Of a stretch of 57,414 nucleotides of DNA, positions 5,530 to 22,920 are shown in pieces. Every line of letters starts with the position of its first letter. The first letter of the stretch is position 1. The position numbers were made by a program, and so were the translations under genes. Source of the stretch: a virus; the IMG/VR virus record IMGVR_UViG_3300046007_006572, positions 1-57,414 of that record; one strand, given 5' to 3'. The notes beneath the pieces were generated by a model. It did no database searches. It saw only the letters and a program-made list of their open reading frames with translations, and had not been told where the DNA came from.

Positions 5530-6075
5530 TTAGACCACACCGTCTGCAACTGCTTCCCACCACTGATAGGTAAGCGTTACAGAAAACTCTTCAATAGTAT
5601 CATTTGAACCCCAATCAACATCAATTGGAGTTACGTCTGTTGGGAACAGACCGACAAACTTATATTTCTTGATTGCATTACCAGCTTTTGCAAACTGAGT
5701 AACTTCACCATCAACTGAGTAACCCAATGGCGTACTTGCAAGAGGATTACGAACGTTTAGATTGTGGCTGTTGATGCCATTCATCCAACGCTCAAATGCA
5801 TTACGAATAATAAAATCTTCATCGTTGATGATTGTTACTGTCCAATCAGCAAATGTACGATTGCCAACAAACTTTAATTCACGACCAAAGTATTGAACAG
5901 GCACAACACCCAGAGTTGCCCCTGGAAGTTGTGCTGTCTTACACATGAACGTCATTTTTGTTTGTGCGTTTCCTGGTGCTGAGAACGCAGGAAACGGCAT
6001 ACTTACCTCAAATAGATTTGGGCGGGCACCGTCACCTGTTAATTGTGAACGGAACTGATTTACGTTAAATGCCAT
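5530..6075 (-). CDS. gp19: Tail tube protein gp19
   Basis: This protein forms the inner tail tube by stacking hexamers. The 181-residue product (T4 gp19 is 163 aa) begins with FRSQLTGDGARPNLFEVSM, then shows FMCKTAQLPGATLGVVPV and VGNRTFADWTVTIINDEDF, the standard tube-protein beta-barrel landmarks. The C-terminal strand FSVTLTYQWWEAV is also typical. It follows the sheath gene gp18 by 25 bases and precedes the portal, the canonical 18-19-20 order. A terminator hairpin follows its stop. Confidence 0.95.
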   Translation of the reverse strand: MAFNVNQFRSQLTGDGARPNLFEVSMPFPAFSAPGNAQTKMTFMCKTAQLPGATLGVVPVQYFGRELKFVGNRTFADWTVTIINDEDFIIRNAFERWMNGINSHNLNVRNPLASTPLGYSVDGEVTQFAKAGNAIKKYKFVGLFPTDVTPIDVDWGSNDTIEEFSVTLTYQWWEAVADGVV

Positions 6076-6100: not shown

Positions 6101-7792
6101 TTAAGCTGCACCAACAACTTCATTGAAACTTACGCCTGTACGAACAGCAACAAAGTTCAACTGAATGAAGTTGATAGAACGAGCAGGTTTGATGTAAATG
6201 TCACCAACAAATTCATTACGGTCAATAATTTCCGCTGTGTTATTTGTATCATCGCAGACAACACGGAAGTCTGTGATACCACGACGACCTTGAACATCAC
6301 GCAGGAATGGTTCTACAAGAGCAACAAACTGGGCACGTGTAAATTGGTCGTTGTATTCAAACAGTGAGAAACGTGCTGCACGTGAAATTGCTTTTTCAAG
6401 AACGATGAACAGACGGCGTACATTGATACGGTCAAATGCACTTGGCTTGCTCAACAGTGTCTTGTCACCAAACAGAACTGTGCCTTCACCTGGGAACGAA
6501 ACAACTGGGTTTACGCCAATTGGATACAAATCGTCACGGTCTGTCTTAGTTGGATTCCACGAAAGTTTGATTACGTTCTTGATTACACCACGATTCATAC
6601 CACCAGGTGAGAACCATGGGTCACGTTCGTTATCGGTACGTACACATAGACCAGCAATGTCACCATTGAGTGGTACCCAACGATAAACGTCTGAGTATTT
6701 GTCGTACTGATACTTATAGCCTGAATCCAGAACTGCATATGAAGATGAAGTTAGACCGTTACGGAATGCTGTAATATCAGTTACTTCATTTCCTGCATTG
6801 TCAACAACGTCTGCTTTTTCTGGTGAAATAAATGCAACACAGTCTTTACGTGTTTCTGCAACATTACTGATAACATACGTAGCGATTGTGCTGTTACCTT
6901 GACCAGTAACAAGTAGTGATACATCAACAGATTCAGCATTTTTGAAGCTATCCCAACCAATTGTGACATTTGCTGTGCTAACTGTACCAACAGTACCGCC
7001 AGATAGTGAATTGGAAGAATTGCTTGAGAGTAATTTGAATGCGCTAGTATTAGCAGCCGAACCCCATGCTGTACCTGTTCCTAAGTTTGTTGGATGTGAC
7101 AGCCACCAAATGTATTGTGAACGATTCTGAATAACATCTTTATAGTAGTTTGAATTACCGCTATCATCTCTAGCATCGGATGCTTTAGAAACAAACGCAT
7201 ATTTTTCTAGAACTGTGCCAGCGGCGCCTGTCCACAAACCATCTTCGTCAACGACAACAATATGAACTTCGTCATTTGCGCCGCCACGACTTGCAACATA
7301 TGATGATGTGTTTGGTGTTGCGCTGAATTGTGATGCATATGCCCATACGTTCCATGTATTTGCATCGGCCATTGAAACGAGAATGCTGTTACCTAAAGAA
7401 CCAGCGTAACGTGCGCCCCATCCACCAGTGTTACCGTATGAACCTGCTGCGTAGCCTGTGTGATTATCTACATAATCATCTTCGTTTTTGATAAGTACGC
7501 CTGTGCCATTTGCTGTAGCATTCAAGGCACCAAGGCCTTGGGCACGAACAATCTTTAGATTATTACCATATGCTAGAAAGTTCGCTGCCGAGAACCAATA
7601 TTCATAATTATCGCTATCTGGTTTACCGAATGAATTCACCAAACGAACTTCATCCGAAATAGTTGTTACTGCACCGATTGGTCCCCAATTAAAAGGTCCT
7701 ACAAAAGCGCCAGTAGAAGTGGCAACTGAAGGAATAACTGTAGTCAGATCAATCTCTGATACATTCACTCCAGGTGATAATTGAAATGCCAT
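6101..7792 (-). CDS. gp18: Tail sheath protein gp18
   Basis: This is the contractile sheath subunit surrounding the tail tube. The start MAFQLSPGVNVSEIDLTTVI and the following TGAFVGPFNWGPIG are near-universal T4-type sheath signatures. The C-terminal domain includes NVRRLFIVLEKAISRAAR and GVSFNEVVGAA, used in sheath-sheath contacts. The length of 563 residues is shorter than T4 gp18 (659), the difference lying in the variable surface domains (about residues 100-350). It has an AAAAGGAGAAA ribosome-binding site and a CTAAATA late-type box in the gap after gp17. Confidence 0.96.
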   Translation of the reverse strand: MAFQLSPGVNVSEIDLTTVIPSVATSTGAFVGPFNWGPIGAVTTISDEVRLVNSFGKPDSDNYEYWFSAANFLAYGNNLKIVRAQGLGALNATANGTGVLIKNEDDYVDNHTGYAAGSYGNTGGWGARYAGSLGNSILVSMADANTWNVWAYASQFSATPNTSSYVASRGGANDEVHIVVVDEDGLWTGAAGTVLEKYAFVSKASDARDDSGNSNYYKDVIQNRSQYIWWLSHPTNLGTGTAWGSAANTSAFKLLSSNSSNSLSGGTVGTVSTANVTIGWDSFKNAESVDVSLLVTGQGNSTIATYVISNVAETRKDCVAFISPEKADVVDNAGNEVTDITAFRNGLTSSSYAVLDSGYKYQYDKYSDVYRWVPLNGDIAGLCVRTDNERDPWFSPGGMNRGVIKNVIKLSWNPTKTDRDDLYPIGVNPVVSFPGEGTVLFGDKTLLSKPSAFDRINVRRLFIVLEKAISRAARFSLFEYNDQFTRAQFVALVEPFLRDVQGRRGITDFRVVCDDTNNTAEIIDRNEFVGDIYIKPARSINFIQLNFVAVRTGVSFNEVVGAA

Positions 7793-7847: not shown

Positions 7848-9479
7848 TTACAACCTTGATGATAAATAACCCGTTGGTGCTTCCCAGACATCTCCATCTT
7901 CGGCCATAGCTTCCTGAGTAACTCCATCGTCAATGAAGCCAAAAGGCACCATACTTTCATCTACGAGCATATTCTGCTCTTCCAACATAATCTTACGAAT
8001 GTCGATTCTAGTCTCATCTTTGAAGAATGCTTGCGCTGTCAGCCACGCATAAAGCACCAGACCCATCACAATATCGTCGTTGTTACCCTCTTCGGCAGCA
8101 AATGTGTCTTTTGTTCTGACGAATGTGTTCAGTTCAGCAATGGTGTCAAAGTCATTGATAATCAGCTTGTCGTTTTCAATCAGCGTTTTGAGGTTAGCAC
8201 AACCAATTTTCTTGACTGATTTAGTTGTTTTTACACCAAAAGCCACTGAGCGTTTGAAGCCAGAAGAGATACTCTGACCCTTGATATGATGGTGTTCCAG
8301 CTTGTAAATATGTTCATACTCTAAGTCGTAATGCAAAATATCCACAACTTGTTGACCAACATTGTTTGTTTCAATCAGTACATAGGCTTCATTATATCTA
8401 CGAGCTAATGAGTAAATAATCGTTGGAAAGAATAACAACGGTAACTTATTGTTGCGATATCTTGCCACTTGTTTATAGGGAGCTTCGGTAGCGTCAAGAA
8501 TATTGATTGTTGAATAGTCTAGATTGACACCTTCAGCACAGTCTACCGTAGCAATGTATATTCTACCTGGTCGTGGGTCCTCATAAATGAACAGATTACC
8601 ATCATCTTCAATACGCATTGGGTCACGAAATGCCATTGAACGTAGTTTTGCACCAGAGATAAGCGTAGCCGCAGAACCAATAAACTCAGTCTCAAACTCC
8701 TGTCGGAACTGCTCTTCAGAAGTATTTCGTATTGTTTCCTCTTTCCACTTCTCATCACGGCCTGGTACCATTGACCAGTGAACTTCAAGTGTCTTATATA
8801 ACGAACGACCCTCTAAAGCATCCATCCACATCTTGTAGAATAGATTTAGACCGTTCGGCGTAGAAACAATAATTACTTTTGACGTTTTACCAGATGAGAT
8901 AACAGGGTAAGTAGAAGTGAAAAATTCTACCGCTAAGTTGTGTGGCACAAACGCAAATTCGTCAAGAAAAATCAGATTATAAGTACCGCCTCGAACACCT
9001 GCTGCTGATGTGGCATAAGCATAAATCTTTGAACCGTTCTCTAATTCAATCGAACGTTTGTTCCAGTTGATAATGCCTTGTTGCAACCATATGGGAAGAT
9101 ATTCATATGCTTTTTGAATCTTGGCAAGAATGTCTTGAGCTAATTGAAGTTTGTTGGCAAGAATACCAATAACAAACTCTTCATTGAACAAAGCAGACCA
9201 CAGCATATAACCGACAGTGGTTGTTGTTTTACCAACCTGTCGAGGCATCTTGGCAATACAGAAACGATTCTCATGAAACGTTCTGACCATATCTTTTTGA
9301 AAGTCCCACATATCAAATGGAACAAGACCACGGTCAACGTTGACAATCTTTACATAGTTCGCTATAAAGTATACTGGATCTTCGGCACACTTTACATACT
9401 CTTTGACTTCTTCTTCTGTAAGGGATAATTCAACACCGACTTTTTTGAGTCGTGCATTACCAAGATATCCAACTTCCAT
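7848..9479 (-). CDS. gp17: Terminase large subunit gp17 (packaging ATPase-nuclease)
   Basis: This is the motor that translocates DNA into the prohead and cuts concatemers. At 543 residues it is a little shorter than T4 gp17 (610). The N-terminal ATPase has an adenine-binding region LVPFDMWDFQKDMV, Walker A MPRQVGKT (residues 78-85) and Walker B LIFLDEF (169-175), with the presumed catalytic Glu adjoining the Walker B Asp. The C-terminal RNase H-like nuclease shows the acidic motifs ATVDCAEG and VLIETNNVGQQVVD and a later NDDIVMGLVL. It lies between the Dps-like gene and gp18; gp16 is two genes upstream, so the usual 16-17 pair is interrupted. Confidence 0.97.
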   Translation of the reverse strand: MEVGYLGNARLKKVGVELSLTEEEVKEYVKCAEDPVYFIANYVKIVNVDRGLVPFDMWDFQKDMVRTFHENRFCIAKMPRQVGKTTTTVGYMLWSALFNEEFVIGILANKLQLAQDILAKIQKAYEYLPIWLQQGIINWNKRSIELENGSKIYAYATSAAGVRGGTYNLIFLDEFAFVPHNLAVEFFTSTYPVISSGKTSKVIIVSTPNGLNLFYKMWMDALEGRSLYKTLEVHWSMVPGRDEKWKEETIRNTSEEQFRQEFETEFIGSAATLISGAKLRSMAFRDPMRIEDDGNLFIYEDPRPGRIYIATVDCAEGVNLDYSTINILDATEAPYKQVARYRNNKLPLLFFPTIIYSLARRYNEAYVLIETNNVGQQVVDILHYDLEYEHIYKLEHHHIKGQSISSGFKRSVAFGVKTTKSVKKIGCANLKTLIENDKLIINDFDTIAELNTFVRTKDTFAAEEGNNDDIVMGLVLYAWLTAQAFFKDETRIDIRKIMLEEQNMLVDESMVPFGFIDDGVTQEAMAEDGDVWEAPTGYLSSRL

Positions 9480-9482
9480 TTT

Positions 9483-9917
9483 TTATCGAGTGAAACTCTT
9501 TAGCATCCAACCATGTTTTTGATGAGCGTCAAGAATGTCTTGAAGAAAATTACCTACTGCTGGTTCATCAGCAGCATCAGCAAGAGCAATACCTGCACGA
9601 AGTTCGAGGATGTACTTGTTGTTATCATTTACAAGTTCACTCATCATAACCAATGGTGATGGTATTGCTACCAAGTCATTTACTTTAGAAAGTTCCATCA
9701 TTCGTGCTAATGTAGTAGGTGCATATGAACCTAAAGCACGAATATGTTCTGCAATAGAATCTGTCTGGTCAAACACAGATTCATAAAAGTCACCTAAGAA
9801 GCCGTGATATTGTGCAAAATCTGGACCTTCTACATTCCAGTGAAATGTATGAGCCTTGAAATACAAACCGAAGTTTGTGCCAAGGATAGTTTTCATTTGT
9901 TCGATTAATTGTTCCAT
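9483..9917 (-). CDS. Dps-like mini-ferritin (DNA protection during starvation family)
   Basis: This 144-residue ferritin-like four-helix protein belongs to the Dps family. Members oxidise and store Fe(II), detoxify peroxide and often coat DNA. The family core KAHTFHWNVEGPDF is followed by YHGFLGDFYESVFDQTDSIAEH. Against E. coli Dps, the ferroxidase residues H51, H63, D78 and E82 fall on H26, H38, D53 and E57 here with the same spacing; the position of D67 is Gly42, with Asp next to it. The product starts about 25 residues before the first His, so the Lys-rich DNA-binding tail of E. coli Dps is absent. It sits three bases upstream of gp17 in the packaging operon. Family assignment is confident; the role in infection is inference. 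Confidence 0.88.
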   Translation of the reverse strand: MEQLIEQMKTILGTNFGLYFKAHTFHWNVEGPDFAQYHGFLGDFYESVFDQTDSIAEHIRALGSYAPTTLARMMELSKVNDLVAIPSPLVMMSELVNDNNKYILELRAGIALADAADEPAVGNFLQDILDAHQKHGWMLKSFTR

Positions 9918-9921
9918 AGTC

Positions 9922-10323
9922 TTATTTGTTAGATTTAATCATTTTTAAAAGTTCAGTGGTGGAGCCAACAAAAACTGCTTTATCTATGTTGACTCCCTTT
10001 GCGACTTCAGATTGGGGTGCAAGCTCTCTTTTTGTTTTCTGAAGTTGAAGCAAATCTTTGTTCATCTCGGTTAAGTTCTTCATCATGTTAGCCAAGACTT
10101 CATATGCTCTCGGTGATTCTGATTGATTGGCAACATAAGCCAAATCAGTCAATGCTTTGTTGCCTGTATCAATCAATGTACGAATATTTTCACGGGCATA
10201 ATTTGCATCTGTTTCTACAGCATCGGATGTTTCGACAACAACAGGCATGGTTTGGACTGGTGTTGCTTCTTCCACTGGTTCAATGTCGAAGATTTCAGAT
10301 AAATTTTTGTTTAGCTTTTTCAT
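9922..10323 (-). CDS. gp16: Terminase small subunit gp16
   Basis: This is the DNA-recognition and regulatory subunit of the terminase. The 133-residue product (T4 gp16 is 164 aa) has a central helical pair ANYARENIRTLIDTGNKAL and SPRAYEVLANMMKNLTEMNK, followed by LLQLQKTKREL, the coiled-coil oligomerisation core typical of T4-like gp16. A disordered N-terminus precedes it. It overlaps the end of gp15 by four bases and is separated from gp17 by the Dps-like gene rather than overlapping it as in T4. Confidence 0.85.
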   Translation of the reverse strand: MKKLNKNLSEIFDIEPVEEATPVQTMPVVVETSDAVETDANYARENIRTLIDTGNKALTDLAYVANQSESPRAYEVLANMMKNLTEMNKDLLQLQKTKRELAPQSEVAKGVNIDKAVFVGSTTELLKMIKSNK

Positions 10324-11321
10324 GATAACGTATCAGGCCATTCTACGATTGTTTCAATATAACCGTAACTAGTATTCGGTAATGCTGTAGTTGGTGTAGG
10401 CTCAGTAATTACAGCAGCAGCATTGATTGAATTGATGTCCAATGTTGCAACATTGTACTTTGCACCAGAATAATCACCCGTCAATGTATAACCAGATTCA
10501 ATATATTTATTACCACCAGTAATGACAAGTGTACCAAGTGATGTATTGCTAAAGAACTCTACTGTACCTACAAATCCGTTTGCTGTGTCACGTAGAGTTT
10601 CACCTGTGGTAAATACGTTATTACCATTAGCAAAGTCAACATAGACCTTTTGAATTTCTTTTGATGTAAGGTCGATGTTGAGATTTGTGTTTGCAGTATT
10701 GATGATTTTGCCAGATTTGACTGGTGGCCAGATAAAGCTCTTGGCAGTAAATGTTAAATCCCAAACAATCAATCTTGTTGTGCCATCACCCATACCACCT
10801 TCATATTCAACCGTAGATGCAACAGAGTTGAGTATGATAGGTACATTATATTTCTGATTCATTGCGGGAATAAAATCCACAACAACATTGAAATCTGGTG
10901 TGAAGAATGGTAAAATCTGTTCTAGTATCTGCGTACCATCTTCCGTATTACGAACATAGATTGATAAACTAAATTCAAAGTTATACGGTACAGGCAAAAA
11001 CTGTGTGCTTACGCCAGTGTTTGTGGCAGCAGCAAAATTTTGTAACGTTGAAACTTGTTTACGACTTACATCATATTCCAGACTGTCAAGATTAAATGAC
11101 ATTCTTGGAACAACTGTGTTGATTGATTTGATAAGATTCGGGTCAGAAGTTATCTGTGTTAGATAACGTTCTTTTGGTCCATATGATAATGGTACTTTTT
11201 GTTTTTCTTTTGCAACACCTGCTTGTGTATAACGAACAATTTCTAAATCATTGAACATTGTGCCGAACACAACCACCATCTTACGAATGGTGCGGTGATA
11301 AAATTGTGCGTTACCTAACAT
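10320..11321 (-). CDS. gp15: Tail sheath stabiliser / tail terminator gp15
   Basis: This protein caps the completed tail and provides the head-joining surface. The 333-residue product (T4 gp15 is 272 aa) starts LGNAQFYHRTIRKMVVVFGT, with the family stretches KVPLSYGPKERYLTQI, SINTVVPRMSFNLDSLEYD and YNFEFSLSIYVRNTEDG. The domain after about residue 225 (GNNVFTTGETLRDTANGF) is a beta extension not found in T4 gp15. It overlaps gp14 by one base and gp16 by four, continuing the 13-14-15-16 operon. Confidence 0.9.
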   Translation of the reverse strand: MLGNAQFYHRTIRKMVVVFGTMFNDLEIVRYTQAGVAKEKQKVPLSYGPKERYLTQITSDPNLIKSINTVVPRMSFNLDSLEYDVSRKQVSTLQNFAAATNTGVSTQFLPVPYNFEFSLSIYVRNTEDGTQILEQILPFFTPDFNVVVDFIPAMNQKYNVPIILNSVASTVEYEGGMGDGTTRLIVWDLTFTAKSFIWPPVKSGKIINTANTNLNIDLTSKEIQKVYVDFANGNNVFTTGETLRDTANGFVGTVEFFSNTSLGTLVITGGNKYIESGYTLTGDYSGAKYNVATLDINSINAAAVITEPTPTTALPNTSYGYIETIVEWPDTLS

Positions 11322-12223
11322 TATGGTTCACCAAATGGATTGATTTCAGTGAAGTCAATTATGCCATCACTTGCTGCTTCGATACGAGCATTGTCAAAGA
11401 TATCTTCAAATGCATTGTTCGTTGTTGCTGCATCGGATGCAAGTGTCACTGTCCACTGTGCGCTGCTTGTGTTACCATGAACGTTTGATGTTGTCACAAA
11501 ATCGCCTTGTATACGATACACATCGATGTACGCATTTGGCTGAAAATCATATACTAATGCTTGTGATGTTGCAGTGGCTAATGATGAACCTTGATATACA
11601 ATCTCATCATTGAGAAACTTACCTGAACCAGAACCTAATGAAATACGAATTTTTGGATAGTAATTACGAATGTTATTGTCTATATCATCAATACCAGTTT
11701 CAATAATTTCATTTGAGAATACATACTGTTTCATTTTTATTGCATACACATAAACATTACCACCACGACCACGACCTAATGTGTAGAACATTGCTTGGTC
11801 ATTTTCACTTTCGACACTCGTAATCTCAAAAAAACTTGTTGTCATTGGAATATAAATCAAATCACCTTCACGTGGTCTTGTGTAACCATTTACTGTATAT
11901 CTAAATCTAAGGCGTGACACAAGCATTGTAATTTCGTCACGAATCTCTAAACCAAACTTAGATATAAAGTCTTGTTCACCATCAAAACCCGTAACATTTT
12001 CAAGATACATTTCAATGGCATGTGCGGTAAGATATTGTTTCAGTCCATCTTCACCATACAGAAAATCTACTTCATCACGTGTTGTTCGTGGAAGATAATA
12101 CACATCCAAGCCATAGATTTTAAGTGCTTCTATGACCAAATCTTCAACAAGCAGTTGCTCTGGTGTAATGGGAGCATCAGCAAGTCTGCTTGGAAAATTA
12201 TTGAAGTAGAAATTAGTGGACAT
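11321..12223 (-). CDS. gp14: Neck protein gp14
   Basis: This is a head-tail connector protein that binds the portal-gp13 ring and the tail. At 300 residues it is close to T4 gp14 (256 aa). Recognisable segments are LLVEDLVIEALKIYGLDVYY and LPRTTRDEVDFLYGEDGLK near the N-terminus and FEITSVESENDQAMFYTLGR in the central barrel. The C-terminal part (DIFDNARIEAASDGIIDF) is conserved in marine relatives. The start overlaps the gp13 stop by one base. Confidence 0.92.
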   Translation of the reverse strand: MSTNFYFNNFPSRLADAPITPEQLLVEDLVIEALKIYGLDVYYLPRTTRDEVDFLYGEDGLKQYLTAHAIEMYLENVTGFDGEQDFISKFGLEIRDEITMLVSRLRFRYTVNGYTRPREGDLIYIPMTTSFFEITSVESENDQAMFYTLGRGRGGNVYVYAIKMKQYVFSNEIIETGIDDIDNNIRNYYPKIRISLGSGSGKFLNDEIVYQGSSLATATSQALVYDFQPNAYIDVYRIQGDFVTTSNVHGNTSSAQWTVTLASDAATTNNAFEDIFDNARIEAASDGIIDFTEINPFGEP

Positions 12224-13173
12224 TATCCTGTAAATATCTCAGAAGGTAGTGAACCCATTTGATAAATCTGTTCTTCCATCTCTTTTATTTCTTCAACTGC
12301 TTCATCATAAATCTTCTGACCATTCAGCGTTACACCACCAGGCATTTGAATACCTTCAAACTTTTTGAGATTGTTACCCCATTGTTGTTTGATTTTTGCT
12401 GTGGCTAGTTGTTTTAAGAAACGGTCATTCCACACATCCGTTGTGCCTTCAATCTGAATTGCAGAATTATTATGTGTCAGTGTTGGTGGTCCAATCAATG
12501 TCAAACTTGTAGGCGATTCAATATTACCAACTTGTTTTGATTCGTTACCAATTGTAATGAAATCGTATGGCACAATTTCTTGGTCGAACTTTGTACCATA
12601 ACCCGTAATTGTGTTTGATGATGGACTGCCTGTAACTGTGCCGGTCAATGTCACTGTTTCCGGTTGTAAAACTCGATAACATTCAACAATAACCCAATCA
12701 CCAGGTTGAACATCACGGGTCCAATCGATGTCAAGCAGTATTTTGTTTTGGCGACGATTGAAACGGAACTGCGGTGTGCCAGAGAACAATAAATTCAATG
12801 TACGTAAGTGTTGCATTGTGATTTCATATGACACATATGATACTGATGTGAAGTCATACAAATCATGTAAACGCAACTGATAACGCAAATCAAACATGTT
12901 AATTGATGCATTAGACTGGTCAAACGGAAAAATGCCAGTCACAAATTGTACTGCATCAGGACAATGAATCCATTGGCGATTGATATCGTCTTGTGTAATC
13001 TGATGCTTCATGAAAAGTTTTTCGGTACCATCATAGTGATAGTCACGCCAAAAAGCAAGCGCATCATCAATACGGTCATCTACTTGGTCGTCATCTACGT
13101 TGATTTCAATTACTGGCCATCCTAGACGGCGTAAACAGTAATCTTTGAATTGTTGTCTTGTTGAAATTGCCAT
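12223..13173 (-). CDS. gp13: Neck protein gp13
   Basis: This is the head completion (adaptor) protein that forms the ring under the portal. At 316 residues it is close to T4 gp13 (309 aa). Diagnostic segments are FKDYCLRRLGWPVIEINVDD with VDDRIDDALAFWRDYHYDG at the N-terminus, and ILLDIDWTRDVQPGDWVIVE with FLKQLATAKIKQQWGNNLKK further on. It is the last of the canonical neck genes before the fibre region; the next gene upstream is the 189-residue fibre-like protein. Confidence 0.94.
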   Translation of the reverse strand: MAISTRQQFKDYCLRRLGWPVIEINVDDDQVDDRIDDALAFWRDYHYDGTEKLFMKHQITQDDINRQWIHCPDAVQFVTGIFPFDQSNASINMFDLRYQLRLHDLYDFTSVSYVSYEITMQHLRTLNLLFSGTPQFRFNRRQNKILLDIDWTRDVQPGDWVIVECYRVLQPETVTLTGTVTGSPSSNTITGYGTKFDQEIVPYDFITIGNESKQVGNIESPTSLTLIGPPTLTHNNSAIQIEGTTDVWNDRFLKQLATAKIKQQWGNNLKKFEGIQMPGGVTLNGQKIYDEAVEEIKEMEEQIYQMGSLPSEIFTG

Positions 13174-13987: not shown

Positions 13988-14536
13988 TTATTGATTCAAT
14001 GCTTTTTGAAAATTAGAGTTTGCTGCTAAAACTGTATATGTATTTGCTGCCGTTTTCAACACTGTAAAAGAATAAGTATCAACCGATTCTTGTTGAGATG
14101 TTGCATAAGAAGGCGCAGAGTTACCTAACCAAAATGGTGCCTGCAACACACCATCAACATAAACATTTGCACGATATCTTATTGCTCCCTGCTTTAGTAA
14201 AATGCCAGTAGTAACCGACTGACCTACTGACAACTGAGAGTCTAATGTATTTTGTGTATTGGCTCTCAAATTGAAAGTTACATTTGCTGTCGTATTCGAA
14301 GAAAAGAAATAAACAGTATTATTTTGTAAATCTATATTTACATTACCACCAACAGCCGTTGGATATACATTTGCAGTTTCGAATATTTGTGTTAGAGATA
14401 TTTGTAAATTTGCAGCAAACGTATTTGACGATAACGAACGAGCAACAATATTGTTGCTGCGAACGGAGTTATCTGCAAGTTTTAGACCTGTGATTGCAGT
14501 GTTTGCTATTCTATTTGAACCTACTCTTTGCGTCAT
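13988..14536 (-). CDS. Small fibre/tail structural protein (paralogue 2)
   Basis: At 182 residues it is paralogous to the gene at 13176-13745. It has the same layout: a short repeat stalk at residues 1-45 (ANTAITGLKLADNSVRSNNI) and a beta domain with the shared core NTTANVTFNLRANTQNTLDS and VYVDGVLQAPFWLGN. The two differ mainly in surface loops, as expected after duplication and divergence of an exposed domain. A CTAAATA box lies 23 bases upstream of the ATG. Fibre or tip role is inferred. Confidence 0.65.
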   Translation of the reverse strand: MTQRVGSNRIANTAITGLKLADNSVRSNNIVARSLSSNTFAANLQISLTQIFETANVYPTAVGGNVNIDLQNNTVYFFSSNTTANVTFNLRANTQNTLDSQLSVGQSVTTGILLKQGAIRYRANVYVDGVLQAPFWLGNSAPSYATSQQESVDTYSFTVLKTAANTYTVLAANSNFQKALNQ

Positions 14537-22912: not shown

Positions 22913-22920
22913 TATTTATT
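22913..22920 (-). promoter_or_regulatory. Late-promoter-like AATAAATA box
   Basis: The minus strand reads AATAAATA 29 bases upstream of the ATG of the glycosyltransferase-methyltransferase gene, in the gap after the first propeller protein. Confidence 0.5.

Follow-up and report, generated by a model that had tools for sequence, protein, structure and literature searches.

A Dps mini-ferritin gene between the terminase genes in a large lineage of uncultured T4-like phages

The dps gene and its neighbors

The window analyzed here comprises positions 1 to 57,414 of the IMG/VR virus record IMGVR_UViG_3300046007_006572. It carries a minus-strand run of genes in the order 13-14-15-16-[dps]-17-18-19, i.e. 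the T4 order plus a dps gene, with 18 and 19 assigned by position only. The following features make up this run:

5530..6075, minus strand: gp19-like tail tube, assigned only by its place in the T4-like order and a conserved neighbor
6101..7792, minus strand: gp18-like tail sheath, assigned only by its place in the T4 order and a conserved neighbor
7848..9479, minus strand: terminase large subunit (gp17-like); PF03237 (Terminase_6N) 2.5e-29, PF17289 2.3e-15
9483..9917, minus strand: dps, predicted tail-less mini-ferritin; Pfam, PHROGs and PDB matches, invariant residues, AlphaFold model
9922..10323, minus strand: terminase small subunit (gp16-like); PF11053 2e-10, phrog_445 6.8e-33
10320..11321, minus strand: gp15-like tail sheath stabilizer; PF16724 2.9e-63
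11321..12223, minus strand: gp14-like neck protein/head closure; PF11649 2.9e-30
12223..13173, minus strand: gp13-like head-tail adaptor; phrog_211 5.1e-42

The dps ORF encodes 144 amino acids from an ATG start (the coordinates include the stop codon), and is separated by 4 nt from the small terminase gene upstream and by 3 nt from the large terminase gene downstream, while the gp18-like gene begins 55 nt past the latter. The compact, co-directional setting between the two terminase subunits was therefore found as originally predicted. The adjacency of genes 16 and 17 in T4, against which this setting had been compared, was also confirmed: the two overlap by 17 nt (96194-96688 and 96672-98504) and T4 has no Dps, whereas in the window dps lies between them. 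Gene order 14-15-16-17-18 and the flanking genes are alike in T4, S-PM2, Pelagibacter phage Mosig and the window, but S-PM2 and Mosig have other small, unrelated ORFs, and no Dps, between 16 and 17, so this junction evidently accepts inserts. The nearest deposited large terminases, from cyanophages and Mosig, are about 55% identical to that of the window. Megablast of the first 25 kb of the window against deposited phages gave zero matches, and no tRNA genes were found in the window.

Profile searches identified the dps product as a ferritin-like domain protein (Pfam Ferritin, 2.4e-22; phrog_3636, 1.1e-31), and a sequence search of the PDB returned 73 matches at E <=1, with bacterial Dps at the top. 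An AlphaFold monomer model, with an alignment of 32 sequences (window, viral and bacterial) as input, reached a mean pLDDT of 97.1 and a pTM of 0.92, and matched solved Dps structures with TM scores of 0.90-0.96. The predicted helices (residues 2-28, 34-49, 52-61, 70-76, 88-115 and 119-143) form the four-helix bundle of ferritin-like proteins, with the additional short BC-loop helix that is expected of the Dps family. The identification of a Dps-type mini-ferritin gene at this place, made before any database search, is thereby upheld. The window protein has its fold, ferroxidase residues, length and lack of a lysine-rich tail in common with bacterial tail-less Dps, namely Brevibacillus Dps (1n1q), B. 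anthracis Dlp-1/2, P. aeruginosa PA0962 (8ff9), H. pylori NapA and Listeria Dps; it is only about 25-33% identical to these, and its gene is phage-borne and situated inside a packaging operon. Judged by sequence, the protein is an ordinary Dps mini-ferritin, and the novelty is the constant position of its gene.

The timing of dps expression was approached through late-promoter-like boxes. ATAAATA occurs within 60 nt upstream of seven out of 49 gene starts, compared to about 1% of random minus-strand positions, and five of the seven boxes sit 27-35 nt ahead of the start. Several structural genes are preceded by such boxes. None lies within 60 nt upstream of dps itself, for which the closest exact same-strand box upstream falls within gp15 (10511), followed by one at 22920. 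Boxes in front of structural genes, the lack of one belonging to dps and the 3-4 nt gaps together make late co-transcription with genes 13-17, i.e. with the neck and packaging genes, the likely reading. The late expression originally predicted is to that extent indirectly supported. Directly ahead of the 13-dps-17 run, no exact copy of the TATAAATA-type late box is present; a weak CTAAATA occurs there at position -29 relative to the ORF that begins at 14536.

Ferroxidase site, missing tail and selection

The ferroxidase residues pointed out in the original prediction (H26, H38, D53 and E57) proved to be invariant, together with the neighboring W27, in 273 out of 273 aligned Dps sequences, i.e. 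the window protein and 272 relatives comprising 166 distinct proteins. The same positions, which make up the inter-subunit ferroxidase motif and its neighboring Trp, are common to bacterial Dps too. Nearly all of the 273 sequences are 143-145 amino acids long. The Lys/Arg-rich tail of the E. coli-type DNA-binding Dps was sought at both ends of the window protein and is absent, as had been claimed for the Lys-rich tail: there is no N- or C-terminal extension, and the C-terminus comes seven residues past the conserved W137. The predicted pI across 22 members is 4.9-5.6, with 10-12 basic against 16-21 acidic residues. These features place the window Dps in the tail-less mini-ferritin class (NapA/Listeria type). 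With no basic tail and a pI of about 5, DNA coating is unlikely, and iron and peroxide chemistry likely. DNA coating was consequently dropped as the main role of this acidic, tail-less protein. Of the DNA protection envisaged at the outset, the coating variant is thus improbable, and no particular role is established.

Between the window and its near relatives, dps has a pN of 0.05-0.12 and a pS of 0.5-0.7. By these measures, the constraint is about that of the large terminase subunit and stronger than that of the small subunit, which indicates strong purifying selection on dps.

Spread, loss and exchange of the 16-dps-17 order

Queries for the IMG/VR scans were the window Dps and the large terminase as well as diverged members; the resulting sample is seeded from relatives of the window and does not amount to a census of T4-like phages. 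The Dps scan yielded at least 595 confirmed relatives. The 16-dps-17 order was found at at least 282 loci (at least 191 distinct by DNA), while eight of the loci gathered had 16-17 without dps and 59 had a Dps gene away from the terminase genes. Homology combined with the same order at at least 282 loci excludes chance placement. The survey that the original prediction had proposed thus shows the order to be constant throughout a large lineage, with the qualification that the same junction holds small ORFs in S-PM2 and Mosig.

In the unrooted large-terminase tree, the eight dps-free loci are nested among dps-bearing ones and three changes are needed to account for them. About three secondary losses are the likely explanation, with the direction of change likely rather than proven, as the root was not inferred. 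In one dps-free phage (L146), genes 16 and 17 overlap as they do in T4. In another locus (L091:4676-5008), dps has a frameshifting 113-nt internal deletion between intact neighbors, possibly an assembly error. Losses in three sub-branches and this deletion suggest that dps is dispensable in some settings.

Certain loci combine the 16-dps-17 order with a very different terminase. In L054, L060, L265, L285 and their relatives, the large terminase is only about 43-45% identical to that of the window, while the Dps of this group remains 70-74% identical, so that one of the two genes, terminase or dps, must have been exchanged in it. The idea that Dps was recruited to packaging, where it would act on the terminase subunits, has the gene position as its one argument and is difficult to reconcile with the retention of dps beside two such different large terminases. 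As the ferroxidase site is wholly retained and dps-free phages such as L146 still have both terminase genes in T4-like order, we consider this role extremely improbable.

Other rearrangements were seen at the same junction. In L099 (4436-5008), the large terminase gene is separated from dps by a 190-amino acid ORF whose NUMOD3 motif and GIY-YIG-like N-terminus mark it as a likely homing endonuclease, and a similar insert is probable, from gap size alone, in L033, L039, L104, L132 and L136. In L087 (1-1396), a large terminase gene (95% identical) follows fibre-like, glycine-rich ORFs that replace 16 and dps, either through rearrangement or in a chimeric contig.

The homing-endonuclease-like ORFs, like the small ORFs of S-PM2 and Mosig, are what would be expected if dps were a passenger with little function, left by a single old insertion at an insert-tolerant junction. 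Strong purifying selection and an active site fully conserved despite wide divergence speak against this, as does the ratio of just eight dps-free loci to at least 282 with dps. A mere passenger is therefore already disfavored and very improbable.

Two possible host clues were examined. The photosystem domain PF00124 was absent from 14 long relatives, giving no sign of photosystem-carrying cyanophages. Bacterial Dps at 17 loci were 23-36% identical, came from mixed phyla and were uninformative.

Among deposited phages, Dps-like matches were found in 54 records, with identities of no more than 60% in any and of at most 33% over full length. They include Salmonella phage 7-11 and relatives, Synechococcus phages S-SRM01 and S-EIVl, and Streptomyces, Lactobacillus and Bacteroides phages. 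In none of the four records whose surroundings were read (S-SRM01, S-EIVl, Bacteroides phage BS162P1 and Salmonella phage 7-11) is Dps next to terminase genes. In the T4-like S-SRM01, 58 kb separate dps (186.9 kb) from the large terminase (128.3 kb), whereas the two adjoin in the window; in Salmonella phage 7-11, the neighbors of dps are genes for nucleotide metabolism and DNA polymerase. The Dps of some deposited phages has been proposed to relieve oxidative stress (PMC8008677, PMC6669764). A published account of a phage Dps inside a packaging operon was not found in the open-access papers searched. Phage Dps as such is already known; what is new is its fixed packaging-operon place in so large a lineage.

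Companion genes and proposed function

A rubrerythrin-like protein is encoded on five out of 11 long 16-dps-17 contigs (L108, L043, L034, L355 and L263), where absence from the others says little as the contigs may be incomplete. Rubrerythrin-like proteins (PF02915) lie at L328:1471-1914 and L329:1468-1896 and in the records of L034, L355 and L263, all in phages also carrying 16-dps-17. The rubrerythrin family includes peroxide-reducing enzymes, and its presence in several relatives fits a peroxide defense.

The sister Dps group, in which the gene is placed elsewhere, has different companions. Within about 3 kb of the Dps gene, 28 of the 47 loci have an ORF with a T4 ipII/ipIII-like N-terminus (MKTYQEFIAEA), e.g. 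L297, L334, L338, L362, L364 and other loci in L330-L378. Tag-like ORFs constitute 10.4% of the ORFs in sister loci as against none in 16-dps-17 and bacterial loci, a pattern composed post hoc from viewed loci, with counts that compare Dps loci only and lack a control from other regions of the same genomes. Furthermore, a Dps domain is found inside a 578-amino acid protein in L379 (5647-7383), directly behind a tag-like MKTFSKLQEA stretch. Including L458, such longer proteins occur at two of 80 loci, and the viral structure library also holds Dps domains within longer proteins, some labeled prohead protease. These neighbors and fusions suggest a virion link in those phages.

The window Dps could itself be a virion component that enters the prohead or associates with the packaging complex, and either shields the packaged DNA from iron-driven damage or supplies the next host with iron or ferroxidase activity. 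The fixed place of dps among head, neck and packaging genes at at least 282 loci agrees with this, as do the sister-group observations. However, no window ORF has an MKTYQEFIAEA-like capsid tag, the window Dps opens directly with ferritin helix A, and its 16-dps-17 relatives likewise have neither tag nor extension. The fusions are rare, and the tagged ORFs may be common in sister phages regardless of Dps. We therefore hold a virion role to be possible but rather unlikely. Its fuller version, in which the mini-ferritin resides in or on the head or is packaged with the DNA, for the protection of the particle's own DNA or as iron/ferroxidase cargo, with the sister settings and tagged fusions as parallel solutions, is likewise doubtful.

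Dps is known to store iron, and dps might accordingly be an auxiliary metabolic gene that, where water is poor in iron, acquires or stores this metal for the iron enzymes of phage or host, with oxidant protection secondary. The chemistry is identical to that of a protective function, from which sequence cannot separate it. A late, packaging-linked place is poorly suited to early metabolic support, and the four deposited phages described above have their Dps away from the terminase genes. Such a metabolic role seems unlikely.

We favor, at a probability of roughly 60%, a late-made tail-less mini-ferritin that would remove Fe2+ and H2O2 while DNA is being replicated and packaged, without coating it. 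In this proposal, dps would be transcribed along with the neck and packaging genes, as its position in the compact run and the promoter-box pattern suggest, and would thus be synthesized late. The subunits would assemble into a dodecamer with ferroxidase sites at the subunit interfaces, where Fe2+ would be oxidized, in Dps preferentially with H2O2, and the ferric iron stored. In the infected cell, this would lessen Fenton chemistry during replication and packaging of the phage DNA, and might also buffer iron released by the breakdown of host proteins. Any DNA protection would be chemical. The case is built from sequence, namely homology, the predicted fold, intact ferroxidase residues, the lack of tails, the fixed position and purifying selection.

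In descriptions to date, phage Dps figures as a host-support gene that turns up occasionally. In the large uncultured T4-like lineage described here, it belongs almost constantly to the packaging operon and has an untouched active site. Whether phages control iron and peroxide while packaging their DNA thereby becomes a testable question in phage biology, and the Dps of the 16-dps-17 phages a concrete candidate for ideas on phage-carried iron. The gene's sequence and setting suggest that the phage produces a scavenger of iron and peroxide as it packs its DNA.
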